64,000 nucleotides of DNA from a virus. The translations under genes were made by a program, and so were the position numbers. The stretch covers positions 62,001 to 126,000 of IMG/VR virus record IMGVR_UViG_3300027770_001980. One strand, 5' to 3'. Positions 2,924 to 43,277 of the stretch are shown here, in pieces; the first letter of the stretch is position 1; every line of letters begins with the position of its first letter. Below the pieces are notes generated by a model, which was given only the letters and a program-made list of their open reading frames with translations, was not told the DNA's origin and did no database searches.

Positions 2924-5205
2924 TGCTACAACCAAATAAAGACCTCGAAGATATTTTTGAATCAGCCGTTGGATATGCTAACGAGCATCGTCATGAATAC
3001 CTTACATTGGAACACTTCTTATATGGTATGGTGAAGAACGAACAGTTTGCAAAACTATTGACAAACTTTGGTGCTAAAGTAGATACGATAATCTCCGATC
3101 TTGAAACATTCATTAATGAAAATTTAAAAGAAATCGTCAACGATAGCGTAGATCGTCCTAAGAAAACTGCCACTGTTGATCGTATGCTACATCGTGCATA
3201 CAATACAGCATTATTCTCCGGAAGAAAAATAATTGAACCTGTGGACTGCTTTATCAGCATTTTCGCAGAGAAGAAAAGTCATGCATGTTACTTCGTAAGA
3301 AAAGCCAATATTGATAAAGACAAATTTATTAGTTATGTGCAGAAAGAGCAAGTAGAAGATGTTGAGGAAGAAGGTGAAAAACCGGTCAATCCTCAAGTTG
3401 AACGTATGCTTAATCAATTCTGTGTCAATCTATCTGCTCGTGCTAAAGGTAAGAAGATTGATCCTGTTATTGGGCGCGAGAAAGAACTCGAAGAAGTTGA
3501 ATTAGTATTGGCCCGTAGAAATAAATCTAACGTGATGCTGATTGGTGATCCGGGTGTGGGTAAGACTGCTATTGCTGAAGGACTTGCACGTAAGATACAC
3601 GAAGGTGCTGTTCCTAAATTCATCCAAGAACATACTGTTTACAGTCTCGATATTAGTGCATTGTTAGCAGGCAGCAAGTATCGTGGAGACTTTGAAGAAC
3701 GTCTTAAAATGGTAATTGGTGCTCTCGAGAAGAAAAAGAACTGTATCTTGTTCATTGATGAGGCACATATGATGAGTGGTGCTGGTGCCAGTAGTGGTGG
3801 CAGTAATGATATGGCCAATATGCTTAAACCAGCATTGAGCAAGGGCACTATCAAAGTGGTAGCCAGCACAACATGGGAAGAATATCGCAAGCACTTTGAA
3901 AAGGATCGTGCTCTAATGCGTAGATTCCAACGTGTTACTGTTGATGAGCCAAATGAAGCAACCTGTATTAAGATCCTTAAAGGACTTAAGAAGTATTACG
4001 AGAAACATCACGGTGTTAAGATCACCAACCAAGCAATCACCGATGCTGTAACTTACTCTGTCAAGTATATGACTGATAAGAAACTGCCGGACAAGGCCAT
4101 CGATCTTATCGATTGTGCCAGTGCTCGCTTCAAGATCAAAGATGAGGAAAACGGTGTAGTGGATCACGATGAGATCATGTTTGAAGTGGCTAAGATCGCT
4201 AATCTTCCACTGGAACAGATCAATGCCAAAGAAGGTAGCAATCTTGCAGGACTCGAAAAAGGCATGCGTGGTAAAGTGTTCGGACAAGAGAAAGCGATCG
4301 AAACATTGCTGGACAAGATCTTTATTGCACAGGCAGGACTAAAAGCATTCAATAAACCCGTTGGTAGTTTCTTGTTTGTTGGCCCAACTGGTGTAGGTAA
4401 GACAGAAGTTGCTAAACAACTGGCTTCTAACATGGGAATCAAACTAATACGCTTTGATATGAGTGAATTCCAAGAGAAACACAGCGTGGCCAAGTTCATC
4501 GGTGCACCTCCTGGATATGTAGGCTTTGAAGATAACGCAGGACAACTGATCACTAACCTACAAGAAACACCAAACTGTGTGCTATTGTTAGATGAAGTTG
4601 AAAAAGCACATCCTGATGTTCTAACAGTCATGCTACAGTTGATGGACAATGGCTTTATCACCGGCAGCAATGGCAAGAAAGCAGACGGACGCAACGCTAT
4701 TATCATCATGACCAGTAACTTGGGTGCTGCTGATGCTGAAAAGAACGGTGTTGGATTTGGTAGTTTAGATCGCGATAGTGATCCTAAGGATGCTGTCAAC
4801 AAGTTCTTTGCACCTGAATTCCGCAATCGTTTAGATGGTATCATCAAGTTTGGTAAGTTGGATCAAACCAGCATGACTAAAGTGGTTAAGAAGTTTGTTG
4901 ATGATCTGAACGCATTGATCAAAGATAAGAATGTCAGTATTAAACCCAATGCAGAGGCTATTGAGTATCTGATCAAGAAAGGATTTGATAGCAAGATGGG
5001 TGCAAGACCACTACAGCGTACCATTGATGAATACATCAAGAAGCCATTGAGCAAGGAAATCTTGTTTGGCAAGTTGACTAACGGTGGAGTAGTTGAGATA
5101 TCTGTTGAGAAAGATCAACTAAAACTCAATGTGATTGAAGTATTGCCAGTTGAACGAGTTAAGGTAGTGGACAAAGATGCAGATACAGAAACTATCGTCC
5201 AGTAA
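2923..5205 (+). CDS. clpA: ClpA-type AAA+ protein unfoldase
   Basis: A protein of 760 residues, full ClpA length. It has an N-terminal Clp repeat domain (about 1-145, with the HRHEYLTLEHFLYGM motif), a first AAA module with Walker A GDPGVGKT (208-215) and Walker B ILFIDEAH, and a second module with Walker A GPTGVGKT (487-494) and VLLLDEVEKAHPDV. No ClpB-type middle coiled coil is present. At 610-612 a VGF tripeptide sits where ClpA carries the IGL loop that docks onto ClpP, so it may use host ClpP for proteolysis. It lies directly after def and dnaJ. Its phage role could be destruction of host proteins or remodelling of virion assembly intermediates; neither is shown. Confidence 0.9.
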   Translation: MLQPNKDLEDIFESAVGYANEHRHEYLTLEHFLYGMVKNEQFAKLLTNFGAKVDTIISDLETFINENLKEIVNDSVDRPKKTATVDRMLHRAYNTALFSGRKIIEPVDCFISIFAEKKSHACYFVRKANIDKDKFISYVQKEQVEDVEEEGEKPVNPQVERMLNQFCVNLSARAKGKKIDPVIGREKELEEVELVLARRNKSNVMLIGDPGVGKTAIAEGLARKIHEGAVPKFIQEHTVYSLDISALLAGSKYRGDFEERLKMVIGALEKKKNCILFIDEAHMMSGAGASSGGSNDMANMLKPALSKGTIKVVASTTWEEYRKHFEKDRALMRRFQRVTVDEPNEATCIKILKGLKKYYEKHHGVKITNQAITDAVTYSVKYMTDKKLPDKAIDLIDCASARFKIKDEENGVVDHDEIMFEVAKIANLPLEQINAKEGSNLAGLEKGMRGKVFGQEKAIETLLDKIFIAQAGLKAFNKPVGSFLFVGPTGVGKTEVAKQLASNMGIKLIRFDMSEFQEKHSVAKFIGAPPGYVGFEDNAGQLITNLQETPNCVLLLDEVEKAHPDVLTVMLQLMDNGFITGSNGKKADGRNAIIIMTSNLGAADAEKNGVGFGSLDRDSDPKDAVNKFFAPEFRNRLDGIIKFGKLDQTSMTKVVKKFVDDLNALIKDKNVSIKPNAEAIEYLIKKGFDSKMGARPLQRTIDEYIKKPLSKEILFGKLTNGGVVEISVEKDQLKLNVIEVLPVERVKVVDKDADTETIVQ

Positions 5206-5869
5206 GTTATTCTATAACAAATGGCCCTATAAGATCGAATGCGTGGTCAAAGGAGCCAGTAGGATTAGCCTTACCGGCATAGAAGAAACCAGATCTCTCT
5301 GTCTCGGACTGCGCCAGAATGCGACTCCCTATTGGAGTCTCAGTGCCCTGAACAAAGAGGAAATGTCTGATCTATTGGCGTTTACTTACGCGGTGGAACC
5401 ATTTGTGGGTCTCAAAGATCAGTTACAGATCAGATGCGAAAATAGTCACTACAATATTTTTTGTAAAGATCTGGTATTTCTGGAAACCATCCATAACGCT
5501 TTAGAACCCTGGGTTTATCGAGTAGTAGGTCCTACCACAGAAGAAGAGCGTGAATTCATGTTAGACAATGGATATAAGAAGATCCTGCGTGATACATTGC
5601 CCTATGGTGATTATCAATACAAAGTCTATTTCGAACCACTGTGGAATACGGCTGATCGACGGGATTTTTTTAAATGGGCTACACAGCGTCCGGACCTTTT
5701 CATCATAAAAACCGGTACTGAAAAATGGTTGCAGGGTTCGAGATGGGTGCATGACCCACATATGTATGTAAAAGATGCAAAAACCATGACCATGTTAGGG
5801 TTGAAGATCAGCGGTTATGTTAGACGAGTAGACGAATTCATACTACGGGAGAACTTAATGACGGCATAA
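5177..5869 (+). CDS. Conserved phage protein of unknown function
   Basis: A protein of 230 residues that starts at an ATG 29 bases inside the clpA end in another frame, a common arrangement in this genome. It is rich in aromatic and charged residues (KLFYNKWPYKIECVVKGA near the start, GSRWVHDPHMYVKDAKTMTMLG near the end) with no signal peptide, membrane span or motif I can assign. Base composition and codon use match the neighbours. Its stop codon overlaps the ATAAATA late-promoter motif for the next gene, which suggests it ends the early clpA unit. I do not recognise the family. Confidence 0.7.
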   Translation: MQIQKLSSSKLFYNKWPYKIECVVKGASRISLTGIEETRSLCLGLRQNATPYWSLSALNKEEMSDLLAFTYAVEPFVGLKDQLQIRCENSHYNIFCKDLVFLETIHNALEPWVYRVVGPTTEEEREFMLDNGYKKILRDTLPYGDYQYKVYFEPLWNTADRRDFFKWATQRPDLFIIKTGTEKWLQGSRWVHDPHMYVKDAKTMTMLGLKISGYVRRVDEFILRENLMTA

Positions 5870-5872
5870 ATA
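5866..5872 (+). promoter_or_regulatory. Putative late promoter (cATAAATA) for the fibre/cargo operon
   Basis: ATAAATA follows a C, so one base differs from TATAAATA. The motif ends 8 bases before ATG 5880. With T4 spacing, transcription would begin within about 3 bases of the start codon, so this mRNA would be nearly leaderless. No Shine-Dalgarno sequence is present. Confidence 0.45.
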
Positions 5873-5879
5873 CTTTATT

Positions 5880-6320
5880 ATGCCAGCATTAAGTCAATCC
5901 CTAACATTTAAAATCAATAACAGTGACACCGTATCTGTAAGTTATCCGAATACGGGTACCACAGCACTAATTTACACCAGCGAACGCATCAAGGGGGATG
6001 GGTATTTCGGTGGTAGCGACGGTGTTCATACCGTATTCTGGAGCGTGGCCGAGTTTGTAGGTACCATTGAAATACAAGGTACCTTAGCATCCGAGCCGGG
6101 TGATTCTGACTGGACCAGTGTAAGACTCACCGAACCTGGCACTAAATTCTATATTGACACCACTGGGTTAGTTACAGATGCAGGTGTTGATAGCACTCGA
6201 TATGTGTTTGAGACCACCGCTAACAAATCTTATAATTTCACTGGAAATTTTGTCTGGCTACGCGGTCGTATCAGTGAATTTGAGCAAGGTGTGATGAATG
6301 GCATCAGTATAAACAGGTAA
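5880..6320 (+). CDS. Putative virion structural protein
   Basis: A protein of 146 residues, predicted all-beta: alternating Ser/Thr/Gly-rich strands with no charged clusters. It ends in FVWLRGRISEFEQGVMNGISINR, an ending I associate with small decoration or fibre-linked proteins of aquatic T4-like phages. There is no ribosome site before the ATG, and the gene stands directly after a late-promoter motif. The fibre-like gene follows after 10 bases. A head-decoration role is as possible as a tail role. Confidence 0.6.
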   Translation: MPALSQSLTFKINNSDTVSVSYPNTGTTALIYTSERIKGDGYFGGSDGVHTVFWSVAEFVGTIEIQGTLASEPGDSDWTSVRLTEPGTKFYIDTTGLVTDAGVDSTRYVFETTANKSYNFTGNFVWLRGRISEFEQGVMNGISINR

Positions 6321-6330
6321 TGGAATCACT

Positions 6331-7875
6331 ATGGCAAAACAAACAATAAATGTAGGAAGTGGAGAATATGCAGGTGATGGTGAAAGCCTGCGTTCAGCAT
6401 TGGTTAAGACCAATGAAAATTTCGACGAAGTTTACACAAATATTGATATTATCAATACTGCTGGTTATATAACTATTGATTCAGTACCAACCAATGTAGG
6501 TGATTTTAACAATGATGTTGGTTACCTAACCACAGAAACATTACCTGCATATCCTACAGTACCAACCAATGTAGGTGATTTTAACAATGATGTCGGTTAC
6601 CTAACCACAGACACATTACCTGCAACACCAACTGATCGATTAACAGCAGGGACAACTGCTACATTAGTATTGCTTGATGACGGAACACTCAAACTTACAC
6701 ATCCCACCGAATGGTGGAGTGGTGCTTATTCTTTAGAGATACAAAAAGACGCAGGTAACTATCATACTTTTAAGAGTTCCTATGGGTTAAGTCTACAGGC
6801 AACACCTGTTCCTAATGGCTATGGACTTAATACAAACACTAACTTTGTAGATATTTTCCACGATGGCGTCAGTGTTAATGTAAATGATAACACTTGGGGA
6901 TTTGGAACAGATGGTAGTTTAGCATTTCCAACAGCGGGGGCAGAATGGCCTATAACAGAATATTATGTTCCTACTCTTATCGGTAAAGATCAAATATCTT
7001 TTGCTACATATAATGCTGAAAATAGCACAAGTTCATATGCCGTATCAACTCAGGATAACAAAAGTTGGGAAGTATTTGCTGAAGATGATGTGGTCGGTTA
7101 TGGTTCTGGATGGGCATATCTAAGGGTAGAATTACCCACAATAGATACCCCTCAAGTTAATATTGAAACCAGGAAAGGTATTGATGGTGTTGACTATACT
7201 TGGACATTTGACGCAGATGGCAAATTAACCACACCTGGACATATTATCCCTAATGCTGATCTCGCATACGATTTAGGCAGCACCTCCAGTCAATGGAGAA
7301 ACCTATACGTTGGAACAGGTTTAGTATTTGTTGCTAACACACTGACCGATATCGGCATCACATTTGCCGATGGTTCTAGACTTACTTCAAGCAATGGTAT
7401 TGGAAGAACATCAATCGGTGATACCTATGTATCAGGTGCTTTCCAACAATTAACAATAGCAGATGATGAAGGAACATTGATTACAATTGCTGGAGGAAAC
7501 AGCCTCTTTAGATTACCACAACTAACCGCAGACATGTTAGGTGCTGAATTTGAATTTTATTTCTCTGATGTTGCTGGACAAGTTTATATACAGAGTTATT
7601 ATACAGGTGTTAGAGAAACCACCGATGTCTTTAGAGGTTCGATATATGTTGGAGTAGACAACGCAACTACTGGTAAGCTGCACACAGCCACTGCAACAAC
7701 TTCAACTGCCTGTGTTTTATTCCTTGGACAACATCATGCCAAGGAAGGCAGTTATATTAAAGTTAAAGCTATTGCGTTTGACACAGTAGGTACTTGGATG
7801 TTTCAAGGCATGTGCGTAGGTGATACCGGACAAACTCCTAATAGTTCAGACCATCCTTTCCAAGATTATAACTAA
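6331..7875 (+). CDS. Tail-fibre-like structural protein
   Basis: A protein of 514 residues. The N-terminus (AKQTINVGSGEYAGDGESLRSALVKTNENFDEVY, about 2-35) is typical of attachment regions of phage fibre proteins. Two copies of a 25-residue repeat follow (VPTNVGDFNNDVGYLTT, about 52-98). A mid-region motif, AYDLGSTSSQWRNLYVG (about 311-327), is common in trimeric fibres. The C-terminal part is beta-rich with a final Cys-containing section, possibly the receptor-binding tip. It lies in the late plus-strand operon, away from the main tail block on the minus strand, so it may form a capsid fibre rather than a tail fibre. Confidence 0.7.
   Translation: MAKQTINVGSGEYAGDGESLRSALVKTNENFDEVYTNIDIINTAGYITIDSVPTNVGDFNNDVGYLTTETLPAYPTVPTNVGDFNNDVGYLTTDTLPATPTDRLTAGTTATLVLLDDGTLKLTHPTEWWSGAYSLEIQKDAGNYHTFKSSYGLSLQATPVPNGYGLNTNTNFVDIFHDGVSVNVNDNTWGFGTDGSLAFPTAGAEWPITEYYVPTLIGKDQISFATYNAENSTSSYAVSTQDNKSWEVFAEDDVVGYGSGWAYLRVELPTIDTPQVNIETRKGIDGVDYTWTFDADGKLTTPGHIIPNADLAYDLGSTSSQWRNLYVGTGLVFVANTLTDIGITFADGSRLTSSNGIGRTSIGDTYVSGAFQQLTIADDEGTLITIAGGNSLFRLPQLTADMLGAEFEFYFSDVAGQVYIQSYYTGVRETTDVFRGSIYVGVDNATTGKLHTATATTSTACVLFLGQHHAKEGSYIKVKAIAFDTVGTWMFQGMCVGDTGQTPNSSDHPFQDYN
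6482..6624 (+). repeat. Tandem 75-bp direct repeat inside the fibre gene
   Basis: Two 68-base copies (6482-6549 and 6557-6624), 75 bases apart, are nearly identical in sequence and keep the reading frame. They encode the VPTNVGDFNNDVGYLTT unit and indicate a recent in-frame duplication. Confidence 0.85.
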
Positions 7876-7881
7876 AATATC

Positions 7882-8241
7882 ATGAAACTTACAGAATTCT
7901 TTAATCAGCCTATACAAATAAGCAAACGCGGTCAAGACACCGAGGATGACAAGCGTGCCGACGAACTCTTCTGGTACATCATCGACCACGATAAACTACA
8001 CAAAGATTACTTCCACTCTATCGCTCGCAAAGTAAAAAAGATGAAAGAATTCACTCCCGAGCAAGTGTCGGAAATGTATATGCCTATGGTGATCAAAGGT
8101 TGTAAAGAATACTATCACGAAAAAGAATTAAAAGGCAAGTTAGGTAAGGAATTTCCTCAAGAAATGAGAGATGACATGTGCCATAGACTGCATGATCACT
8201 ATCGCGAAGATATTGAAAAAGATATATACAAGTTAGGATAA
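7882..8241 (+). CDS. Small acidic/basic helical protein with cargo-type N-terminus
   Basis: A protein of 119 residues starting MKLTEFFNQP, one of a set of similar starts in this operon. The rest is strongly charged and helical (KRADELFWYIIDHDKLHKDYFHSIARKVKKMKEF and EMRDDMCHRLHDHYREDIEKD), rich in His, Asp and Lys. No enzyme motif is visible. It sits between the fibre-like gene and the multi-enzyme giant, 4 bases before the latter. I infer a virion-internal or scaffold-like protein; the family is not recognised. Confidence 0.65.
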   Translation: MKLTEFFNQPIQISKRGQDTEDDKRADELFWYIIDHDKLHKDYFHSIARKVKKMKEFTPEQVSEMYMPMVIKGCKEYYHEKELKGKLGKEFPQEMRDDMCHRLHDHYREDIEKDIYKLG

Positions 8242-8245
8242 CGCT

Positions 8246-11200
8246 GTGAACTTAACCGAACTATTTAGAAATCCTAAATTAGCCATCAACGAAGGTGGCA
8301 ATGTATCTAATCAAAGTCCAGGGTGGCAAGGAGTTCCGGGAGATCATCAGGCACAGGAACTTGATCTGCATGTCCATGATCGCGCCTATGTGCAAGATGT
8401 AGTAAGCCAACTATTACATACTATTAACGATGTATATGCTCAACAGCATCAAGAACCATTATGGCATGAGAATTCCGTAAAAACTCAAAAGTTCTTGAGT
8501 GGTAGCACTTTACAATTCATGGATAAGAATATTCCAGATGAAGAATTCATTCGTGTTAAACCTAAAGTAGGCGATATTGATACACAGGCGTCTGACCAAC
8601 ATGCTGATACAATCAAACAGTTCTTACAAAGCAATACAGGCAAGGCGTTTGGCAATGCCGTATTGTTAGGATTCACCCCGGGTAATAGTCAATGGGTTAG
8701 TCTATGGGAGATCAAATTAAAAGATCTACCTGTCAAGATACAGATCGACTTTGAATATGGAGCACATGAGAAGGAAACAGGATTACCTACAGAGTGGCAA
8801 TCATATAGTCATAGTAGTGCATGGGATGATATATCTCAAAACATCAAAGGTGTATTCCACAAATATTTAGATCGTGCATTGCCATACGCACAGGCCAGTA
8901 CCAAGTATGTGGCCCGTGTATTAAAGAAAAGCACCAAGATCTCCGATGCACCTGTTACAGATAGTGATTATAGTTTCGCTGTCAGTGGACCAGGCGGCGG
9001 TGGTGTTAGTCAGAAGTATGTGCCTTACAATGATCCTGCCACTGGGCAACCTATGGAGAAAGATGGAATTCCTGTCATGCAATTACTGGAACCCAGTGCA
9101 AGACAGTATGTTCAAAATCTCTCCCAACAATTTGAAATCTTCTTTGGACGCAAACCCAAAGGTAATGACCAAGAACTTAAAAACAGTTTCATTGGAACCA
9201 TACAACTAATCGCAAAATATTTAGATGAACAGAAGAAAGAAGAAATAGCAAGACGCTTCTTCAGCATATGTTTTGAACCAGGTAGTCAAATGATTACTCG
9301 TGGTGATCCGGCAAGAGATCGTGATATAAAATTTGCGGCTATCGATTGGATGTTGGAAAATATGAAGTTGGCTAATGCTGCTGGTTTGAGAAAAGAAGCA
9401 ATCGATATGGCCACTGCTTATGCTGCCGCTTTCCAAAATAAGGCCGCTAAACCAGTTAATGAAGAAGCACAGGTAAAAGCACAATTCCGTAAAGGTATGC
9501 CACACTTGCACGATCTTAAGCCTGCTGACTTGTTAGATCTATTAGACGAAATTCATGACGGAAACGGCAGATTTAAACTACAAAACATTCCTTTAAACGT
9601 CAAAGTAGACGGATTTGGTGGCAGATTTGGTAAGAATTCCGACGGTAAGCCTTTCATGGGCACCAGTAGAACAGAACCCAGATATGAACCAGGCTTCGTA
9701 GCGTATCATCAAAAGAAAGGCACCGTTGATCCGGAAATTTTAAACCGTGCTCAATTGTTTGATGACCTATTTGAGGAAATGATGAACGCTGTCCAATTAG
9801 TTGATAGCAAGTTAGGACCTGGATTTTTGGTCAACAAACAAGTCACATGTGAAGTATTGTATCTACCATTTGCTACAGAAACTCCAGAAGGTAAACTAAA
9901 GTTTGTTGGTATACATTATGACAAATTACCATCAGGTGTCAATCTTGCATTAGTTCCATTCCGTATCACAGATGCTACCACAGGTGAAGATTTACCTAAC
10001 TCAAACAAAATCGTCCAAGAATTAACCAGCGTAGGGCAGTCAGGTAGTGTCATGTTTATTGACAACAGCCTAACACAGAATGAAGCATTAGATGTTACAG
10101 CATTAGTTCCACCATTGGAAAACATTGAACAACTCAAAGGCATGTTGGCCAGCAACAAGTTAGAAGCCCGACGTCAAGTCAAGGCAGCATTGGAGCCAGT
10201 GGCAGCGGCATTAGAGAAGGCCATCATCGAAGATCCTAACATCATCGGTAAAGATTTATTAGGACAAGACTATGAAGGTATCGTTATCAACAGCCGCCTT
10301 GGTCCTATCAAAGTAACCAGTCAAGAACAGCGTGATGTTATCACTGCTAAAAATGCTGCTAAGACTAATGCAAGAACAGAGCGTCCAAGAGGCGAGGCTA
10401 AAACCGCAGTAGTTGCCATTGGTAGTTTCGTTGGACACATCGGCCACGAACAACTTTGGGACTATACAACTAAGAAAGCAGCAGCAGTAGGAGGTGATCC
10501 ATATTTGTTTATTGGCAATGCACAGGGCAAGGATGATCCTATTCCACCATCAGTTAAAGTTCAAACATGGCACAAACTGTATCCAGAATATGCTAAAAAT
10601 ATATCCACGGTGAATCAAGATGGCGGATCACTGCTACAAAAGATCAAACACGAATTAATCAATCCACTACCAGGCAAGCCTCCACGCTATGATAATGTCA
10701 TCATCATGGTAGGTGAAGATCAAGCAGGTCTCACTATGCCTCAAGCATTGATGAAGGCTGTTAACAAGTTCCAGGGTTACGAACATGTAAAAGTTACATT
10801 AGAACCGACACCGCGTGGTACAGGCATGAGTTTCACTCGACTACGCAACATCTTAAAAGATCCCAAGGCAACTCCAGATCAACAATTTGCTGAATGGTCT
10901 AAAGGGTTTGATGTGAGCAAATTAGGTGCAGACTGGATCTTACACCTTATGGATATAACAAGGAAAGGTATGGGAATACAACAACCACAGGCACCTGTTC
11001 CGCAGGCACAACCTACACCGTTAGCAGAACGCAGAGTATTAAATGCTCTAATCGAAGGTACCAGTATTGACAGCACACTACGAGCCATCATCAATGATGT
11101 TGGTGAACCTATTACCAATGTCTATGGCACGATGAAATTCCAAGCCAAGAAGTATATGGAAAATCACGGCGAACTCGGCCGTGGCTTTAGAATGGTAGCA

Positions 11201-13219
11201 GCAGGTGTTGGTGGTCGTTGGGTTCAAAATATGTATGTAGGTAGACTACAGAATGAACTATACGATCTATGCAAATACAATACTCGTAGAACTGTAGATC
11301 TACAAGAATTCCTACGCGGAGTCGAAACTGACGGTGAGTTAGAAATGAAGAGATCATTTGGCAACATCGCTAATAATCTACCTCCAATATTGGCCAAGTT
11401 AGGCGAACAAATCAACGCACCACAACTAACAAGAAATGCTCAGCGTTGGATGCAGAACAAAGCAGAATACGAACGATATCTAATGGATCTGGAAGCAGCA
11501 GGCGATGAGCCGGATGATATTCCTGTTAGAAGCAAGCCTCCAAAGAGTAATGCTGTCGGGCAACAGAATGCACAGGTTGATTCAATCATCAACAATGTGT
11601 TAGGTAAAGTTCCTAAAAGTATAGCAGGTGATATCCGTAATGCTATCGCTCGTGCTCCAAACAAATTGGCAGCATTGAAAGCGGAGTTAGATCGTCACAA
11701 TATCAATATGGCAGAAGACAATGATGTTATGTCACGCATGGCTCGAGATCTAACTGGTCCAGGTGCTCCTGATGCGAAACGCAGAGCCCAACGCGATCAA
11801 CAGCGTCAGCAGGATCGTGCTCAAAGTGATGGCAGAGATCATGGCCCTAAATGGGATGTAGAGGAAGGCGAACAAGATCCACAGTCAGAATTAAAACTGA
11901 TTAACCAAAAACTCAAAGATGCGTATAAACAAGTTCGTAACAATTCTTCTGTGTCAATAGGTTGGTACATGTCAGAGGTAAAAGCATTAAAAGCACGCCG
12001 CGAAGAATTGATTAAACAATTAAGACAAGGTGTGGCGGAGGCCGGTAGTCCTGCTCAACAGGCAGCAATAGCCATTTCTATGAAGAAAGCAGGAAAGAAA
12101 CCAAAAAGTGAAGATATCTCATTAAACGAACTATCAGGATACGGCGGTGATAAAAAATATGAGCACTTAGGCACTCATAAAAGATATGAGGTTTATGTCA
12201 CTAAACAAAAATTTAATAATTTATACTTTATTGCAATTGCCGAGAATACAAGAACGTTAGAGTCAAAATTTAAAGCAAAAGGTAACACTCCACAAGAAGC
12301 AGTGAATAATTTAAAATTAGAAATTGATAAAGAAATCGATGTTGCTACCAAAGTCAGTGGACAGGCTATATTAGATTTTAATGTTGATTTTGTAAAAGAT
12401 ATATTAGAAATGAGTTCCGATACATTCTACGCTAAAATAGTAGCGGGGCCAAGATTAGTTATAGCAGGACCTGAAATGATGGAATATCCTGAAATAATGC
12501 GTGATGAAGGATTTAAGCCAAGTGCTATTAGAACATATAAGGGTGGCGAGGGGACTACAAAACTTCCAGGAGTTCCGCTAAGTTCTAAATCAGCAGCGTC
12601 CGCAAATCTTATTGCCAATGGTAGATATGTGTTAGGAAATGAAGAACTCGATAAAGACGGCAATAGAGTATTTGAGTTAAACTTTGATAGTGTGGTACAG
12701 GCGTCAAACGATAAAATGAGACTAAGGGCACCTGCTCTTACTGTAGGAACCAATAGATCTCAAGGTGTGTCAGAGGCTCCTAAAAGTGCTGCGGTTAGAT
12801 TAGGCAATGCTATCAAGCGTGTGCAAGGTACAACAGCAGCAAGCCAAGCAAGATCTGTTATCCCTTCAAGTATCCCTAAACCAGAACCCAAGAAGGATGA
12901 GAAAACTAATGAGAGAATGATGCCAGCCAGTATGTTCGCAGGCAGCAAAAAGAACAAACTCGGACCAGCAGGACAATGGAAGAACACCGGACCTAAAAAG
13001 AACAAACCAGCACAGGCCGGTGATTTAGTTGGCGGTATGGAGGAAAGTTTAAAAGATTCCAACCCTTGCTGGAAAGGCTATCACCCTGTGGGTACCAAGA
13101 AAAAGTCAGGTAAAACTGTTCCAAACTGTGTACCAGTGAGCGAGAATGTTGAAAACATTATGGATGCTCTGATTAACAAGATCGTAGTAAATGAAGCAAT
13201 TCAGAATAACCGTAAATGA
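8246..13219 (+). CDS. 1657-aa multi-domain protein: NTase-like, nucleic-acid-ligase-like and HIGH adenylyl/cytidylyltransferase domains
   Basis: It begins at GTG after an AGGA site, with the N-terminus MNLTELFRNP. Domains seen: (1) residues about 60-230 look like a nucleotidyltransferase fold, with GS (86-87), DID (110-112) and a third carboxylate in IQIDFEYG. (2) Residues about 410-700 carry covalent-nucleotidyl (DNA/RNA ligase) motifs: KVDG (453-456, adenylated Lys), RFG, CEVLY, EGIVIN (677-682) and IKV (688-690). (3) Residues about 720-905 are an NMNAT/cytidylyltransferase-like domain with HIGH (731-734) and SFTRLR (862-867). (4) Residues 930-1260 are helical and charged. (5) An AT-richer module (about 1275-1500) is bounded by QGVAEA (1261-1266) and QGVSEA (1506-1511). 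(6) The C-terminus holds a two-Cys CWKGYHPVG...VPNC motif. Motifs are read by eye. The fusion and late-operon position suggest a cargo polyprotein. Confidence 0.75.
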   Translation: MNLTELFRNPKLAINEGGNVSNQSPGWQGVPGDHQAQELDLHVHDRAYVQDVVSQLLHTINDVYAQQHQEPLWHENSVKTQKFLSGSTLQFMDKNIPDEEFIRVKPKVGDIDTQASDQHADTIKQFLQSNTGKAFGNAVLLGFTPGNSQWVSLWEIKLKDLPVKIQIDFEYGAHEKETGLPTEWQSYSHSSAWDDISQNIKGVFHKYLDRALPYAQASTKYVARVLKKSTKISDAPVTDSDYSFAVSGPGGGGVSQKYVPYNDPATGQPMEKDGIPVMQLLEPSARQYVQNLSQQFEIFFGRKPKGNDQELKNSFIGTIQLIAKYLDEQKKEEIARRFFSICFEPGSQMITRGDPARDRDIKFAAIDWMLENMKLANAAGLRKEAIDMATAYAAAFQNKAAKPVNEEAQVKAQFRKGMPHLHDLKPADLLDLLDEIHDGNGRFKLQNIPLNVKVDGFGGRFGKNSDGKPFMGTSRTEPRYEPGFVAYHQKKGTVDPEILNRAQLFDDLFEEMMNAVQLVDSKLGPGFLVNKQVTCEVLYLPFATETPEGKLKFVGIHYDKLPSGVNLALVPFRITDATTGEDLPNSNKIVQELTSVGQSGSVMFIDNSLTQNEALDVTALVPPLENIEQLKGMLASNKLEARRQVKAALEPVAAALEKAIIEDPNIIGKDLLGQDYEGIVINSRLGPIKVTSQEQRDVITAKNAAKTNARTERPRGEAKTAVVAIGSFVGHIGHEQLWDYTTKKAAAVGGDPYLFIGNAQGKDDPIPPSVKVQTWHKLYPEYAKNISTVNQDGGSLLQKIKHELINPLPGKPPRYDNVIIMVGEDQAGLTMPQALMKAVNKFQGYEHVKVTLEPTPRGTGMSFTRLRNILKDPKATPDQQFAEWSKGFDVSKLGADWILHLMDITRKGMGIQQPQAPVPQAQPTPLAERRVLNALIEGTSIDSTLRAIINDVGEPITNVYGTMKFQAKKYMENHGELGRGFRMVAAGVGGRWVQNMYVGRLQNELYDLCKYNTRRTVDLQEFLRGVETDGELEMKRSFGNIANNLPPILAKLGEQINAPQLTRNAQRWMQNKAEYERYLMDLEAAGDEPDDIPVRSKPPKSNAVGQQNAQVDSIINNVLGKVPKSIAGDIRNAIARAPNKLAALKAELDRHNINMAEDNDVMSRMARDLTGPGAPDAKRRAQRDQQRQQDRAQSDGRDHGPKWDVEEGEQDPQSELKLINQKLKDAYKQVRNNSSVSIGWYMSEVKALKARREELIKQLRQGVAEAGSPAQQAAIAISMKKAGKKPKSEDISLNELSGYGGDKKYEHLGTHKRYEVYVTKQKFNNLYFIAIAENTRTLESKFKAKGNTPQEAVNNLKLEIDKEIDVATKVSGQAILDFNVDFVKDILEMSSDTFYAKIVAGPRLVIAGPEMMEYPEIMRDEGFKPSAIRTYKGGEGTTKLPGVPLSSKSAASANLIANGRYVLGNEELDKDGNRVFELNFDSVVQASNDKMRLRAPALTVGTNRSQGVSEAPKSAAVRLGNAIKRVQGTTAASQARSVIPSSIPKPEPKKDEKTNERMMPASMFAGSKKNKLGPAGQWKNTGPKKNKPAQAGDLVGGMEESLKDSNPCWKGYHPVGTKKKSGKTVPNCVPVSENVENIMDALINKIVVNEAIQNNRK
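12026..12043 (+). repeat. QGVAE-type repeat, copy 1 (possible processing site)
   Basis: It encodes QGVAEA. The DNA itself (AAGGTGTGGCGGA) recurs almost base for base at 14839, with close relatives at 12761 and 15148, and more loosely as amino acids at 14626. All copies are in frame and stand between distinct domains. Confidence 0.7.
12761..12778 (+). repeat. QGVAE-type repeat, copy 2
   Basis: It encodes QGVSEA (residues 1506-1511 of the giant cargo protein) and closes the AT-rich module opened by copy 1. Confidence 0.6.
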
Positions 13220-13457: not shown

Positions 13458-13898
13458 ATGGAACAATTAACACAAATCGCCAAGGTTGCTTTTGCCAGTG
13501 AATTCAGTTTCGCACTAAAAGCACAGAATTTCCACTGGAATGTAGAAGGTAGTGACTTCTTGGAATATCATCAATTGTTTGAAATGATATACAGCGAAGT
13601 ATACGGCAGCATTGATGACTTTGCTGAAAATCTACGCAAGTTAGGAACTTATGCTCCTGCCAGTTTATCACGATTCAACATGTTAACACAGGTTGGCGAT
13701 GAAACTGAAATACTACCATTAGAGGCCATGGTGAAAGAATTATTGATGGATAATGAGAAGATGATACTTATCCTGAAGAAAACATATGCTGCCAGTGAAG
13801 CAGCAGGTGAGCCTGGATTTAGTAACTTCTTGGCAGATCGCATTGATGGTCATCGCAAGCATGGTTGGATGTTGCGTGCCAGTAGCCGAGGTCAATAA
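13458..13898 (+). CDS. dps: Dps-family ferritin-like DNA-protection protein
   Basis: A protein of 146 residues with the Dps four-helix pattern. FHWNVEGSDFLEYHQLFEMIY (from residue 25) and SIDDFAENLRKLG carry the inter-subunit ferroxidase ligands H26, H38, D53 and E57 at Dps spacing. A Glu stands at position 42, where E. coli Dps has Asp67. The C-terminal helix NFLADRIDGHRKHGWMLRASS is also typical. Dps dodecamers oxidise and store iron using peroxide and bind DNA. It is shorter than E. coli Dps (167) and lacks its lysine-rich N-terminal extension, so direct DNA binding is less certain. It stands in the late cargo operon, upstream of a superoxide dismutase. It might protect packaged DNA or the infected host from oxidative damage. 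Confidence 0.88.
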   Translation: MEQLTQIAKVAFASEFSFALKAQNFHWNVEGSDFLEYHQLFEMIYSEVYGSIDDFAENLRKLGTYAPASLSRFNMLTQVGDETEILPLEAMVKELLMDNEKMILILKKTYAASEAAGEPGFSNFLADRIDGHRKHGWMLRASSRGQ

Positions 13899-14263
13899 TG
13901 CGGGCACTTGAATTTATTACCGAAAAGAAAAATGGTAAACTTTCCAAGAGACAACAGCAACCCACAAGAGGTGCTAATGTCTACAGCGACGGTGAACAAG
14001 TAAGTGGTGATTATACCTCTTACAGGTTAGGTATGGCAGTAGCAGGGGCAGACGGCAAGACTCCGGTGAAAATAGATTCAAAAAGTTGGGTTGGCAAAAA
14101 GAAAACTACACATCCTTATTCAGAGGTAGAACAAGATATGTTAAAAGATGCCTACAAAGCAGTAGGTGCAAAATATACCGACCTTAACCACGGCGATATG
14201 ACCAGCAAAGAGTTAGAAGGAACAAACACAGTAAGTCCTGTAGCAAATTGGAATAAACAATGA
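13898..14263 (+). CDS. Small basic protein with capsid-targeting-like start
   Basis: A protein of 121 residues starting MRALEFITEKKNGKLSKRQQ, which closely recalls the N-terminal capsid-targeting peptides of T4 internal proteins. The body is hydrophilic and basic, with a WVGKKKTTHPYSEVEQDMLKDAYKAVGA segment that appears to be a small conserved helical module. It ends SPVANWNKQ. It is tightly packed (TAATG with dps, ATGA with the next gene). No catalytic motif is seen. A virion-internal, DNA-associated protein is the best guess. Confidence 0.65.
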   Translation: MRALEFITEKKNGKLSKRQQQPTRGANVYSDGEQVSGDYTSYRLGMAVAGADGKTPVKIDSKSWVGKKKTTHPYSEVEQDMLKDAYKAVGAKYTDLNHGDMTSKELEGTNTVSPVANWNKQ

Positions 14264-16017
14264 ACAACGAATTTAAACAAATATCAAAAGGCGATATAAC
14301 TCGTTATGTATTAGAAAGTGGCAGCAGCGGTGGCACCAGTTCGGGAAGTGTTGCCAGTGTCAGTATGCCCATAGGCGGTACACGCAAGCGAGGTGCTAAT
14401 CTAATCGCACAAGAAGCAGATAAGAAAACAGTTCCAGCAACTACTCCAAGAAACTTCGTTGCCAAAAATGCCAAATCAAGTGGTGCCGGTGCTCACAAAG
14501 ATAAAAAGAAAGCAGCCAAGCAAGGTCAAGAAAAACATAAGAAACCTTTTATGGAAGACCATAGTACCGCCTCAGGCGGATGGGGTAAAGGCAGCTACGA
14601 TACATATACCGCAGGCAATCATGGACGCGGAGTTGCTGAAGATGAAAGAGACCACCCTGATCATGAAATACAAATGGCCAGTAGTGAACTACTAAGTATT
14701 GCCAAGAATGCTGAAGAATTGTTAGGCTTAGTACGTCGCTATAGCGAACAGGAAGGGCTTGATGCTTGGCAACAAAGTAAAATTACCAAAGCAGCCGACT
14801 ATTTGAATAGTGTGCTACAAAGCGTCAACGGTGAACAGCAAGGTGTGGCGGAAGGCTCTGAAACATCACAACAGCAACAAGTTCGTGCTGCAATTACTAA
14901 AGGCATGGAAAAATGGGATAGTAATAATAAGTCTACATATCAGAGTCAACCAACTAAAACTAATTATATGCCACCCAGCGGTTACGCTAGCGATTCATTG
15001 ACAGGAGTAGATTCCATTGATCCTGATGGTACCGTGGTCATATCTCTTGGAAATACTGGTGCCGAAGCCACAATTAAAAAATTAGCAACATTAGGTGGTA
15101 TGCCCGGCATTAAAACTAGACAACTGCAATCACCAACCGTTTCATCTAGAGGTGTGGAGGAAGGTGAGGGAAAACGCTGTATGCAATGTGGCATGACTAA
15201 CTGTACATGCCCACCGGGTAAATGCAAATGCAAACCCGTTGCAGGATGGATCCCAAACAAGGGATTTAAGAAAGATGTAGACGAAAGTTGGGATGATATT
15301 AAAAAGTTTGGCAAGAAGGCCGCAGTTGCAGGTGCTATAGGACTCGGCATTGGTGCCGCACATGCCGGCGGATGGTCACCCTCCGATGTTCCAGCAGGCG
15401 GACATAATCAACTGCCGGACATCGTTGCCCATGTTAAGTTTAAAGTGGGTGACAAGGAAGTTAGCAAAGAGATCAATTTAGGATCACACTATCGCTCACC
15501 AGGTGAGGCAGGTAAAGAACTTGAGAACTTTTTAAAGTCTAAAGGGATAAAATTCTACGAATATAGTCTTGAAAGAGTTAAACCAAAGGACGACGATAAG
15601 ATGGATAGTTCCCCTGCTACCGGCGATATGAAAGGTAGCATGGATACTAAAGAACCTGCTGCTACTGGCCCATCTACAGACAACTATATGGCCAAAGATA
15701 ACGATCCAGAACACGGACCGTCAATGGGCGGAAAGTTTGTTAAAGAAGGTGCAAAGGTCGATCGTCAGGCCAAGCATATTACTGCCAGTATGATGAAGAA
15801 AGGCAAGAGCAAGAAAGATGCAGAATCTATTGCTTGGGCACATATCAAACATCCTAAGAACGAAAGCGCAGATCCATACTTTGAATCACTACAATCTATG
15901 GTTGAGAGACAACTGGAACCTAACATGGAATTAGATACATGGATTGATAATTTCCAACATGCTGATCCAAATAAGTATCACCAATTTAAAAATAAGACCC
16001 CAGAAAAAAAAAAGTAA
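14260..16017 (+). CDS. Modular 585-aa cargo protein with three GV(A/E)E repeats and a Cys-rich knuckle
   Basis: The N-terminus is Ser/Gly-rich, then very basic (residues 60-97). RGVAED (123-128), QGVAEG (194-199) and RGVEEG (297-302) cut the protein into blocks: a helical block (130-193); a block with DGTVVISLGNTGAEATIKKLATLGGMPG (about 256-283); and a block that opens with six cysteines (C307, C310, C315, C317, C322, C324), possibly metal-binding. A Gly/Ala hydrophobic stretch (352-369) and a beta/alpha domain (385-440) follow. A C-terminal module, QAKHITASMMKKGKSKKDAESIAWAHI, is of a kind seen in several aquatic phage proteins. No enzyme can be named. The block structure suggests a polyprotein or a linker-rich internal head protein. 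Confidence 0.65.
   Translation: MNNEFKQISKGDITRYVLESGSSGGTSSGSVASVSMPIGGTRKRGANLIAQEADKKTVPATTPRNFVAKNAKSSGAGAHKDKKKAAKQGQEKHKKPFMEDHSTASGGWGKGSYDTYTAGNHGRGVAEDERDHPDHEIQMASSELLSIAKNAEELLGLVRRYSEQEGLDAWQQSKITKAADYLNSVLQSVNGEQQGVAEGSETSQQQQVRAAITKGMEKWDSNNKSTYQSQPTKTNYMPPSGYASDSLTGVDSIDPDGTVVISLGNTGAEATIKKLATLGGMPGIKTRQLQSPTVSSRGVEEGEGKRCMQCGMTNCTCPPGKCKCKPVAGWIPNKGFKKDVDESWDDIKKFGKKAAVAGAIGLGIGAAHAGGWSPSDVPAGGHNQLPDIVAHVKFKVGDKEVSKEINLGSHYRSPGEAGKELENFLKSKGIKFYEYSLERVKPKDDDKMDSSPATGDMKGSMDTKEPAATGPSTDNYMAKDNDPEHGPSMGGKFVKEGAKVDRQAKHITASMMKKGKSKKDAESIAWAHIKHPKNESADPYFESLQSMVERQLEPNMELDTWIDNFQHADPNKYHQFKNKTPEKKK
14626..14643 (+). repeat. QGVAE-type repeat, copy 3 (divergent)
   Basis: It encodes RGVAED. 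The amino acids match the other copies, but the codons differ, so it is an older copy or a convergent one. Confidence 0.5.
14839..14856 (+). repeat. QGVAE-type repeat, copy 4
   Basis: It encodes QGVAEG with the same GTG GCG codons as copy 1; a further CAACAG codon pair is shared 12-18 bases downstream of both. Confidence 0.7.
15148..15165 (+). repeat. QGVAE-type repeat, copy 5
   Basis: It encodes RGVEEG immediately before the cysteine-rich knuckle, with GGTGTGGAGGAAGG in the DNA. Confidence 0.6.
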
Positions 16018-16066: not shown

Positions 16067-16849
16067 ATGAGACTAGATGAGTTTGATCAAGAAGACTACG
16101 AGATACGCAATCTAAAGAAGTTAGATGGTATCTTGGTCACACTCTGCAAATTGGTCATTGAAGGCCAAAAGAGAGATAAAGAACGCTATGGTATGGTCGC
16201 TGCCGCTGTATTAGATCCTGACAATAATTTGGTCATGGGATTAAATTATATGCAAGGCGATTTACATGTCCACGCTGAAAAAGCGGCCATGGAAGCCTAC
16301 GATAGAAAATACGGAGATATTCCAGAAGGCAGTATTCTTCTTACTACATTGAGTCCTTGCAGTGAATTCAGTGACGAAACTGCACAAGAAAGACACGGGG
16401 ATAGTTGTACCGATCTAATTAATAATTCCATCATACGAAAAGTCTATTGCGGGTTTATGGATCCAAGCCAAGGTGATGACGAGCACGAAGAAAGAGAATT
16501 CACTCTACAAGAAACTAACAATACCAATATTAGAACATTATGTGAAAAGTTTGCTGATACATTCTTGGAAGATGAGTTGAATGAATCTGCTGCTTGGCAT
16601 CGTAAGGCAGGTAAGAATAAAACAGGTGGGCTCAATCGTAAAGGCGTTATGAGTTATCGTAGAGAGCACCCTGGCAGTAAACTACAAACCGCAGTAACCA
16701 CTAAACCCAGTAAATTGAAACCGGGTAGCAAGGCTGCTAAACGCCGTAAATCATTCTGTGCTAGAATGGGCGGCGTTGATGGTCCTATGAAAAAAGATAA
16801 CGGTGAGCCCACACGGAAAGCATTGGCACTAAGAAAGTGGAACTGCTAA
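16067..16849 (+). CDS. CDA-fold deaminase fused to a DUF6321-like tail
   Basis: A protein of 260 residues beginning MRLDEFDQED, behind an AAGGTGA site. Residues about 20-165 form a cytidine-deaminase-superfamily domain: HAE (HVHAEKAAM, zinc His and proton-shuttle Glu) and TLSPCSEFSDETAQERHGDSC (the PC...C zinc ligands), with an unusually long insert between the last two cysteines. This could act on (deoxy)cytidylate, riboflavin precursors or a modified base. Residues about 183-260 (AAWHRKAGKNKTGGLNRKGVMSY ... KSFCARMGGVDGP ... ALALRKWNC) match a basic domain found in many phage structural or internal proteins (DUF6321 type). The peptide LNESAAW separates the two parts. The substrate is not determined. 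Confidence 0.75.
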   Translation: MRLDEFDQEDYEIRNLKKLDGILVTLCKLVIEGQKRDKERYGMVAAAVLDPDNNLVMGLNYMQGDLHVHAEKAAMEAYDRKYGDIPEGSILLTTLSPCSEFSDETAQERHGDSCTDLINNSIIRKVYCGFMDPSQGDDEHEEREFTLQETNNTNIRTLCEKFADTFLEDELNESAAWHRKAGKNKTGGLNRKGVMSYRREHPGSKLQTAVTTKPSKLKPGSKAAKRRKSFCARMGGVDGPMKKDNGEPTRKALALRKWNC

Positions 16850-17457
16850 TGCGTATCAATGAACTACTTGAAAGTGCAGGTGATTTACCAAGCGATCCCG
16901 GTCCTAGAGAATTTATTAGTAATAAATTTCATGTTAAATTTACCAACGATGCTCTTTTAGTTTACGATGGCGGTGAACTTGTTTATAAAAGGCCAGGAAA
17001 TTTCTCAAACCCAACTAGGCAAAATGCGTCAAATGCAAAAGGTGTCACTAATACCCTGTGGAGGGCTAAACACGATCCAGCATATAAAAATCTAGCCAGT
17101 TCTCCTTACTTGGTTATAAAACCAAGTGACGTTCATAAAGCAGCCGACAAAAAAGGTATACCGTGGGATAAAGATAGGAAATTTTTTAATTTATCAAAAA
17201 AACTAACAGGTAAAGGTCATTTAGATAACATGACCCCAGAAGAACTTAGAATAATGTTTGATTACTTAACTAAGATAAAAGTTAGAGAAAACTTTGCTGA
17301 CGGTCGGCATCCTGAGGATAAGGGCGACTCAAAGCGTTATCATGTTCCTACCAAAGGTAGTGTCAGTAGTTTGAGAAAGTTTGCTAAAAATCATTCAGGT
17401 CGGGCAGCACAATTGGCACACTGGGCTGCCAATATGAAAGCAGGTAAAAAGAAATAA
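16849..17457 (+). CDS. Putative virion-internal protein
   Basis: The preferred start is ATG 16849, which overlaps the upstream stop (TAATG); an in-frame GTG 12 bases earlier lies inside the previous gene. The protein has 202 residues and begins MRINELLESAGDLPSDPG. The middle is unremarkable. The C-terminus is highly basic, with the stretch KGDSKRYHVPTKGSVSSLRKFAKNHSGRAAQLAHWAANMKAGKKK, which looks DNA-binding and resembles endings of other aquatic T4-like phage proteins. It lies between the deaminase and superoxide dismutase genes. No enzymatic motif was found. Confidence 0.65.
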   Translation: MRINELLESAGDLPSDPGPREFISNKFHVKFTNDALLVYDGGELVYKRPGNFSNPTRQNASNAKGVTNTLWRAKHDPAYKNLASSPYLVIKPSDVHKAADKKGIPWDKDRKFFNLSKKLTGKGHLDNMTPEELRIMFDYLTKIKVRENFADGRHPEDKGDSKRYHVPTKGSVSSLRKFAKNHSGRAAQLAHWAANMKAGKKK

Positions 17458-35361: not shown

Positions 35362-36627
35362 ATGTCTAAAGTAATGAAACAAGAACGCACTAAGAAAGAT
35401 TGGACTGATCGCCAATTTACTGAATCTGAAAAAAATAAAATTATTGAAAAACTGATCACCGCCCGTGTGGGCTTGCTGTTGAAGCATCCGTTCTTTGGTA
35501 ATCTTGCTACACGCATGAAGTTGGTTGATGCCAGCGATTGGTGTAGCACATTGGCTACAGATGGCCGCACCTTCTATTACAATAACGGCTTCGTGCATAA
35601 GTTGACTCCTAAAGAAGCAGAGTTTGGCTTTGCTCACGAAGTATTGCACAATGTATTTGATCACATGGGTCGTCGTGATCATCGTGATCCCCAACTGTCA
35701 AACATTGCCGCAGACTATGCTGCTAACCAAATTCTTAAAGACGAACATATTGGTATGGTGCCTAACTTCATTAAAATCTTCCAAGATGACAAATATCGTG
35801 GTTTGAGTTATGAAGAAATCTATGCCCTGCTTGAAGAAAAAGCCATCAAGATTGACTTAAGCCAACTTGGTGAACTATTGGACGATCACTTAGATGGCGA
35901 CGACGAAGGCGAAGGCGGTGGTGACAAGGATGGGGAAGATGTTGACGGAAGTGGTAAAGGTCGTCCTCGTCTAACCGCAGAAGAAAAGCGTCAGATCCGT
36001 GAGGAAATGAAAGAGGCTGTATTAGCGGCTGCACAATCTGCAGGTGCTGGACGAGTGCCAGCAGGTATCCGTCGTATGATCAGTGACTTCACTGAGCCTA
36101 AAATGGACTGGCGTCAAATCCTGCGTATGAATATCCAAAGTATCTTCAAGAGCAATTTTAGTTTCGCTCGACCTAATCGTAAGAGCCAACATTGCGGTGC
36201 TATACTGCCCGGAATGATGAATGAAGAAACTATCGATGTGTCAGTTGCTATTGACATGAGTGGTAGTATTTCAGATGCTATGGCTAAAGACTTCATCAGC
36301 GAAGTCAAAGGCATCATGGACGAATACAAGGACTTCCGTTTGGATCTGTGGTGCTTTGATACCCAAGTTTACAACTATGCTCGATTCACACCGGATGCTG
36401 CTGATGACATTTTGAGTTACGAAGTCAAAGGTGGTGGCGGTACTGACTTTGATGTTAACTTTGAATTCATGAAGAACGAAGATATCGTTCCTAAGAAGTT
36501 CATCATGTTTACAGATGGATATCCTTGCGGTAGTTGGGGTGACGAGGATTACTGTGATTCATTGTTTGTTATTCACGGTAATGAATCCATAATTTCACCC
36601 TTCGGCCAGACTGCTTATTATAAATAA
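35362..36627 (+). CDS. MoxR-partner VWA protein with HExxH (DUF2201-like putative metallopeptidase)
   Basis: A protein of 421 residues. The N-terminal half carries FAHEVLHNVFDHMGRRDHRD with an HExxH zinc-peptidase motif (HEVLH, about 92-96), as in the DUF2201 family. An acidic, Gly-rich linker (DDHLDGDDEGEGGGDKDGEDVDGSGKGR, about 173-200) follows. The C-terminal half is a von Willebrand A domain with the MIDAS motif in DVSVAIDMSGSISDAM (DxSxS, about 297-305) and GGGGTDFD (about 354-361). It would work with the MoxR ATPase upstream. Such pairs occur in T4-like phages without a known function. The last codons overlap a perfect TATAAATA. Confidence 0.85.
   Translation: MSKVMKQERTKKDWTDRQFTESEKNKIIEKLITARVGLLLKHPFFGNLATRMKLVDASDWCSTLATDGRTFYYNNGFVHKLTPKEAEFGFAHEVLHNVFDHMGRRDHRDPQLSNIAADYAANQILKDEHIGMVPNFIKIFQDDKYRGLSYEEIYALLEEKAIKIDLSQLGELLDDHLDGDDEGEGGGDKDGEDVDGSGKGRPRLTAEEKRQIREEMKEAVLAAAQSAGAGRVPAGIRRMISDFTEPKMDWRQILRMNIQSIFKSNFSFARPNRKSQHCGAILPGMMNEETIDVSVAIDMSGSISDAMAKDFISEVKGIMDEYKDFRLDLWCFDTQVYNYARFTPDAADDILSYEVKGGGGTDFDVNFEFMKNEDIVPKKFIMFTDGYPCGSWGDEDYCDSLFVIHGNESIISPFGQTAYYK
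36619..36626 (+). promoter_or_regulatory. Perfect late-promoter match (TATAAATA)
   Basis: This is the only full T4 consensus match among the sites listed. It sits across the end of the VWA gene and, at T4 spacing, would start transcription near 36632, 8 bases before ATG 36640. Confidence 0.45.
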
Positions 36628-42590: not shown

Positions 42591-43277
42591 TTAAATTCCA
42601 GTACTAATACTTTGTATTCTTATAGTATAATCAATTTGAATCATCCTGTTCAAGGATTTCTGAACAGGGTGAAATATAACATGAGTCAATAAAATACCCA
42701 TATTTGGACCATCTACCGAATAGGATCTTAATCCTAATTCATCAAATATATAATCTGTGGTACTTGATGTACCTGTGTCAAACGCCGATTGATCATTTGG
42801 CTCACCAAAATCTAATAAACAACTTACAAGAACATCGGTGTAGGCGGTTCCCGTAAGATGTCTTGTTTCCATAAAATTTCTGGCAGGATCTATAGAAGAA
42901 TTTCTTTTAGAATCAACTGTTTTGTAATAAGTTTGATTATATAAAGCTGCATCACTACCTACTGTATTAGGGGTAAGATATGTGATAATTCCTGTGGGGT
43001 CAACACGAGAGCCTCCGTTACCAAACATCATTTCAGCAATCGGTCCATTATCTTGATTTGAAATACTTTGTGCTAATGCTATTGAAAAGTTTTCATAATG
43101 AATAGCATTTCTCTTGTCAACAAATACTTCTTTTGTGGTAGGATCAAATATTTTGATGTGTCCTTGAACACTGACTCCACCTTTTTCAGTAGGCTTTATA
43201 TCTTTAGGTATATTATTCATGTTTTTATTATCCATAACGGTATTTATCTTTGTATCTTCTGGCAACTTATCCACCAT
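42591..43277 (-). CDS. Virion structural protein (baseplate or fibre attachment)
   Basis: The preferred start is ATG 43277 (MVDKLPEDTK), which overlaps the giant gene's stop by 11 bases; an in-frame start lies at 43313, and a later ATG (43235) stands 6 bases after an ATAAATA motif. The product has 228 residues, with SVQGHIKIFDPTTKEVFVDKRNAIHYENFSIALAQSI, AEMMFGNGG and a C-terminal IQIDYTIRIQ. These motifs recur in structural proteins of aquatic T4-like phages at this position of the tail block. The beta-rich fold suits a small fibre-linker. Confidence 0.65.
   Translation of the reverse strand: MVDKLPEDTKINTVMDNKNMNNIPKDIKPTEKGGVSVQGHIKIFDPTTKEVFVDKRNAIHYENFSIALAQSISNQDNGPIAEMMFGNGGSRVDPTGIITYLTPNTVGSDAALYNQTYYKTVDSKRNSSIDPARNFMETRHLTGTAYTDVLVSCLLDFGEPNDQSAFDTGTSSTTDYIFDELGLRSYSVDGPNMGILLTHVIFHPVQKSLNRMIQIDYTIRIQSISTGI

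Follow-up and report, generated by a model that had tools for sequence, protein, structure and literature searches.

The window analysed is a stretch of 64,000 nucleotides, comprising bases 62001-126000 of a virus record of 221,356 bases (G000). An open reading frame at 8246-13219 (+), with a GTG start codon, encodes a 1657-residue protein, P0001. This reading frame and all of the motifs named in a preliminary description of the DNA were verified at the same residues. They comprise the nucleotidyltransferase (NTase) motifs GS (86-87) and DID (110-112), the ligase motifs KVDG (453), GRFG (459), CEVLY (535), EGIVIN (677) and IKV (688), and the HIGH-domain motifs GHIGH (730) and SFTRLR (862). The assignment of the gene to a late operon was not confirmed. 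The T4 late promoter word TATAAATA is present once in the window, at 36619 and away from the P0001 gene, compared with approximately six copies expected per strand from the base composition, and late transcription thus cannot be argued from the promoter word.

Several neighbouring genes were noted (a slash marks a predicted or apparent cut). A small gene at 7882-8241, whose product starts MKLTEFF, ends 4 nt upstream of the P0001 gene; in two relatives (L239 and L246) a related gene is, by eye, apparently fused upstream of the NTase, with the sequence LME/GGN retained. A Dps/ferritin-like DNA-binding protein (phrog_3636) is encoded at 13458-13898, between P0001 and a second polyprotein. It is followed at 13898-14263 by a 121-residue protein with a T4 IPIII-like capsid-targeting start, MRALEFITE/KK. 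Further along, 16067-16849 encodes a deaminase-like protein (HVHAEKAAMEAY, weak dCMP deaminase match) with a basic C-terminal tag common to several phage protein families, and 16837-17457 encodes a 206-residue protein with the start MRINELLE/SAG and the tail SSLRKFAKNHSGRAAQLAHWAANMKAGKKK, likely another internal protein. A single open reading frame encoding 4969 residues occupies 43267-58176 (-).

Enzymatic domains of P0001

Relatives were gathered from IMG/VR using the whole protein and two domain alignments as queries. All three signatures were present, by simple patterns, in 95 of 129 relative open reading frames; many of these loci overlap, and they comprise 79 distinct sequences, 65 of which were aligned. 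The P0001 architecture, first described as being without precedent, is common to approximately 60 distinct relatives. Its components are also found apart: Xanthomonas phage X1 encodes the NTase, ligase and HIGH domains in three separate, closely neighbouring genes, and Vibrio phage phiKT1024 encodes the ligase and HIGH domains in one gene and the NTase in another. The three domain types themselves were borne out by structure prediction and by approximately 50 relatives each, with invariant catalytic residues (residue numbers were converted from alignment columns). The named motifs are not chance occurrences, since 46-47 divergent relatives show no or almost no variation at the catalytic positions.

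The NTase comprises residues 17-406 (8294..9463, +; 390 aa), with a predicted cut at PVNE406/E. Residues 52-381 match phrog_19290 (PHROGs, E = 4e-28), and G86, S87, D110, D112, D168 and E170 are invariant in 46 NTase sequences. AlphaFold2 modelling gave a pLDDT of 94 for this domain and of 88 for the ligase-HIGH unit. Foldseek analysis of the NTase model against the PDB returned weak matches (best E 0.03). Pol-beta-superfamily enzymes were prominent among the higher-probability weak matches (RelP, MenT4, Pol beta and Pol mu), and a Pol-beta-type fold is thus only weakly indicated by the model. Membership of the RlaP family was considered and rejected, as no Pfam RlaP match was found among 46 relatives at E <= 0.1. 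The NTase is genetically coupled to the ligase, being fused to it in P0001 and encoded near it in X1.

The ligase-HIGH unit comprises residues 407-928 (9464..11029, +; 522 aa), ends at PLAE928/R, and consists of a ligase (~410-705) fused to a HIGH-type nucleotidyltransferase (~718-912). Across 47 relatives, the ligase residues K453, D455, G456, R460, F461, G462, E536, E677, G678 and K689 are invariant, as are H731, H734 and R867 of the HIGH domain; G726 and S727 are invariant or nearly so, and S862 is nearly invariant. The ligase part was matched by Foldseek to the archaeal ATP-dependent RNA ligase 5d1o (probability 1.0), the tRNA ligase Trl1 and DNA ligases; it carries the KxDG lysine, the Glu, EG and K motifs, and the fold of covalent nucleotidyltransferase ligases. 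The HIGH part, with its GxxxGHxGH and S-x-T-x-x-R motifs and Rossmann-like fold, is of the HIGH type. Its Foldseek matches were PPAT (3pxu, TMt 0.70), FAD synthetase and NaMNAT; residues 697-916 match the cytidyltransferase family phrog_3041 (PHROGs, 9e-11), and Pfam FAD_syn touched 41 of the 47 relatives. Nothing was found in favour of the suggested NAD-consuming machine, the enzymes that the HIGH domain resembles being makers of cofactors. The P0001 sequence itself had no match among solved structures. Searching PDB sequences with P0001 or with profiles was useful only for the HIGH domain, which matched FAD synthetase; Pfam analysis of full-length P0001 returned DUF3671 only, below threshold. 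In the cyanophage Synechococcus phage S-H9-1 (L321), a KWDG ligase-like protein (QPB08184) is encoded directly before a cytidyltransferase (QPB08183), as an unfused pair.

Predicted cut sites and head genes

Residues 1-16 (8246..8293, +; MNLTELFRNPKLAINE) form a putative capsid-targeting propeptide with a predicted cut at E16/GGN. In phage T4, the gp21 protease cleaves after L/I-x-E, and the capsid-targeting propeptides of the internal proteins are 10-19 residues long (PMC9026906). The 16-residue leader of P0001, ending AINE/GGN, fits this pattern, and the T4 record gives MKTYQEFIAE as the start of IPIII. Among the aligned relatives, the residues preceding GGN differ in number and identity but close with hydrophobic-x-E, as in Campylobacter phage CP20 (MKLSELMFILE/GGN). 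The X1 and phiKT1024 proteins have no leader and start M-GGN, which is the exact predicted mature end.

The motif [ILVM]xE was present before the NTase in 55/55 propeptides (31 expected on shuffling), in the NTase/ligase linker of 58/58 distinct sequences (22 expected) and in the linker following the HIGH domain in 50/57 relatives (29 expected). The linker between the ligase and HIGH domains carried it in 1/56 relatives, compared with 12.9 expected on shuffling; this lack of a site matches the gene organisation of phiKT1024 (ligase and HIGH in one gene) and X1 (all three separate). Within the folded domains [LIV]xE is depleted (2.3 compared with 4.0, and 4.9 compared with 6.9, per sequence), but some LxE remain there and the motif alone is no proof of cutting. 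Two LxE sites, E928 and E937, flank a nine-residue peptide, RRVLNALIE (11030..11056, +), which in relatives reads QRLFNALIRPxLxE. As the NTase and the ligase-HIGH unit have conserved LxE sites between them, the chain is probably cut there, and the earlier picture of one working multi-enzyme protein is not favoured. The predicted products are a 390-residue NTase, a 522-residue ligase-HIGH enzyme and small modules.

The same genome encodes a Peptidase_S77 prohead protease (G000:147577-148005) close to a gp23 capsid protein (G000:149257-150438). The propeptide of this capsid protein closes with the same type of motif. The protease is also present in seven related records, and the gp23 capsid propeptide ends LxE/S or LxE/N in 7/7 records. 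Starts resembling capsid-targeting sequences (for example, MRAHEFIVE and MKTYQFITE) were found in 33/85 open reading frames bearing the joint word described below and in 64/530 other open reading frames of the same loci (odds ratio 4.6, p = 1.5e-8), the p-value being indicative because the regular expression was written after the starts had been seen. The suggestion that the protein is delivered in the capsid is thus supported, as putative delivery, by the N-terminus, the protease-type sites and the prohead protease gene.

The modular C-terminal half and its DNA joint

The most unusual part of P0001, absent from the preliminary description, is its modular C-terminal half together with a nearly invariant DNA joint. 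A fourth domain (11057..11716, +; residues 938-1157, ending NMAE1157/D) is conserved in four relatives (L002, L004, L005 and L008), and past residue ~1157 the relatives diverge. It is followed by a variable basic/helical module that differs among relatives (11717..12040, +; residues 1158-1265, ending QGVAE1265/A), and by one or more exchangeable modules (12041..12775, +; residues 1266-1510, ending QGVSE1510/A) that most relatives lack; L009 is a relative with a match, to residues 1283-1510. The joint word CAAGGTGTGGCGGAGG (Q-G-V-A-E; 12026..12041, +) lies between these modules as a swap joint and predicted cut site, with codon-level invariance and switches of homology. The C-terminal tail (12776..13219, +) comprises a basic linker, a NPCWKGYHPVGTKKKSGKTVPNCVP module and the sequence VSE1633/NVENIMDALINKIVVNE1650/AIQNNRK. 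It is common to L004, L005, L006 and L008 and to the second polyprotein of L004, and its short Cys/Lys module recurs in proteins of cyanophages, among them one with the annotation T4-like structural protein.

The same phage encodes a second modular polyprotein of 585 residues (14260..16017, +), whose gene carries the joint word twice, at 14842 and at 15151. Compared with L005, identity is 90% on one side of the joint at 14842 and 27% on the other. Each of 144 open reading frames carried 1-6 words, delimiting 111 internal modules with a median length of 80 residues in one small sample. Few modules have Pfam names: GNAT (L071), DUF6321 (L097 and L016), and phage lysozyme with LysM (L190). In L190, the lysozyme and LysM modules lie in the C-terminal part of the open reading frame at 4807-9621. 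By eye, ART-like starts were noted in L008 and L126, and an HExxH motif in L165.

The sequence (K/Q)QGVAEG sits between unrelated modules, and its DNA is almost always CAAGGTGTGGCGGAAGGC (QGVAE/G, 18 letters). The valine at P3 (GVAE) falls outside the strict T4 motif L/I-x-E. Viral contigs contained a 16-base form of the word in at least 120 stretches, compared with seven stretches, none in word arrays, for a synonymous 18-mer control; 120/120 occurrences, in 80 loci examined, were read in the QGVAE frame. Conservation extends over approximately 18 bp, the information content being at background just outside -6 to +14. Among 95 distinct GVAE sites, in loci that were identified solely through protein homology, 77 (81%) carried the exact 11-mer, compared with 0.5% expected from codon usage. 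Within G000, a 13-base form of the word, with up to one mismatch, is confined to the two polyproteins. A spread of the word into cellular genomes was considered and rejected; the 26 hits occurred one per stretch, were mostly GC-rich and often lay outside the longest frame. The record of one very large phage (L090; 524,565 bases) contains the joint word twice, together with a T4-type capsid protein and protease.

The pattern of joints suggests that modules are exchanged at the word. Among 284 distinct sites, 97 pairs showed likeness on one side only (~0.9, against ~0.28 for the unrelated side), the change falling at the edge of the word, and two pairs were alike on both sides; as the pairs were selected for one-sided likeness, the edge profile arises partly by construction and the informative comparison is 97 to 2. 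In an independent comparison, homology ends identified by blastn fell within 5 nt of the word in 15.8% of cases, compared with 3.0% expected, which marks the word as a hotspot for joining alongside other breakpoints. The stricter proposal that all breakpoints lie at the word was rejected, approximately 80% of the homology endpoints in word-bearing open reading frames lying away from it.

These observations bear on three other explanations. P0001 could be an uncut multi-enzyme protein that works inside the infected cell, the LxE and GVAEG sequences being flexible linkers with no role for a protease. The phiKT1024 ligase-HIGH fusion, encoded by a gene without a propeptide, is in keeping with this; however, every NTase/ligase linker retains a site despite varying length and sequence, and the ligase/HIGH linker, of similar length, does not. 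The natural M-GGN starts and the N-terminus resembling capsid-targeting sequences also argue against it, and the flexibility of a protein would not explain linker identity at the codon level. We therefore regard an uncut protein as quite improbable. The word could alternatively be an active, site-specific element that mobilises modules (a target for a recombinase, for homing or for transposition) and not a passive stretch on which general phage recombination acts, as its sharp conservation over only ~18 bp, its invariant codons across very different phages and the joining of modules at its edge might suggest. No palindrome was evident by eye, though, strand and frame are always the same, and many homology ends lie elsewhere; such an element appears unlikely. 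Least plausible, and very much so, is retention of the word for a reason at the RNA level (an internal translation start, a ribosome pause or mRNA processing). The word does contain a purine-rich GGAAGG with invariant codons, but Met is not enriched in the residues that follow it, and an RNA signal would not be required to coincide with a module boundary.

Proposed mechanism and relation to known systems

We consider it likely that P0001 is a head precursor polyprotein whose parts, those of the C-terminal half joined at the DNA word, are packaged and released by the prohead protease; its core may serve RNA repair. Placement of the sequences and the T4 precedent suggest that the 16-residue N-terminus would carry the precursor into the prohead core, in the manner of T4 capsid-targeting sequences, and that a T4-gp21-type S77 protease would cut after [L/I/V]xE during head maturation. 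This would release the Pol-beta-type NTase (17-406), the ligase-HIGH nucleotidyltransferase (407-928), the fourth domain and small basic modules, which would stay associated with the DNA and be injected into the next host. The C-terminal modules would be exchanged at CAAGGTGTGGCGGAAGGC by general phage recombination. Were the word both recombination joint and protease site, any in-frame cassette flanked by it would become a packaged and released protein. The evidence leans slightly towards a cassette system of this kind without a dedicated recombinase, in which one 18-bp word, shared by many T4-like phages, acts as an in-frame recombination patch and head-protease site, yields combinations of packaged effectors and has its identity kept by the exchange itself.

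RNA repair is put forward tentatively as the likeliest job of the core: the NTase and ligase may mend RNA, of the host or of the phage, that defence nucleases break as infection begins, and the HIGH enzyme may supply or transfer a nucleotide during that repair. Confidence is modest because the NTase lies outside Pfam RlaP, and for the same reason some weight, though less, is given to a packaged kit that restores NAD or other cofactors, with the HIGH domain as an NMN/NaMN adenylyltransferase. The matches to NaMNAT, PPAT and FAD synthetase are consistent with such a kit, but it would leave unexplained the ligase and the Pol-beta-type NTase, whose catalytic residues are all kept; we regard it as doubtful.

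If the head-precursor reading is correct, the head-carried proteins of large T4-like phages would follow a simple rule, with cuts at [LIV]xE and at the GVAEG word. Each piece would be a candidate effector or anti-defence protein, most of the scanned modules being without a Pfam name, and an NTase-ligase kit would be ready inside the virion before any phage gene is expressed. The word would be a natural standard linker, its DNA serving recombination and its peptide serving processing, and direct tests would become possible of how modularity evolves and of what phage heads contain.

Packaged internal proteins (PMC9026906) and polyvalent proteins (PMC5512222) are already known; the open-access literature yielded no description of the joint peptide or of a polyprotein cut at multiple sites by a prohead protease with modules exchanged at a codon-fixed word. 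Like P0001, the polyvalent proteins of Iyer et al. 2017 (PMC5512222) are large, multidomain phage proteins that are likely packaged and have mosaic domains, and relatives of P0001 carry GNAT (L071) and lysozyme (L190, with LysM) modules. None of the typical polyvalent domains (MPTase, PBECR, ART, DdrB-like ParB, lysozyme and GNAT) was found in P0001 by Pfam. The examples considered are either not cut at all or expected to process themselves through an MPTase domain, and the passages on them describe no universal prohead-protease joint or codon-fixed word (PMC5512222). Repair pairs of an RlaP NTase and an ATP-dependent RNA ligase have been described in jumbo phages (PMC7824862). They share with P0001 the association of a Pol-beta-type NTase with a KxDG ligase; in contrast, the NTase of P0001 is outside Pfam RlaP, its ligase is fused to a HIGH nucleotidyltransferase, and its packaging is predicted.

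The T4 internal head proteins (IPI-III and Alt) resemble P0001 in their short N-terminal peptide ending L/I-x-E and in their expected packaging and injection, and T4, like G000, has a gp21-type protease and a gp23 capsid protein in its genome. However, they are single proteins, whereas the P0001 precursor comprises several enzymes and modules with multiple internal predicted sites, and only the P0001 group swaps modules at a fixed DNA word. T4-type mobile regulatory cassettes, the CdiA VENN motif and Rhs toxin junctions likewise have a short conserved sequence bordering exchangeable modules, but they are found between genes or ahead of a single terminal toxin. The present word, by contrast, lies inside the reading frame, where one gene may contain as many as six copies, and it encodes a predicted protease site.
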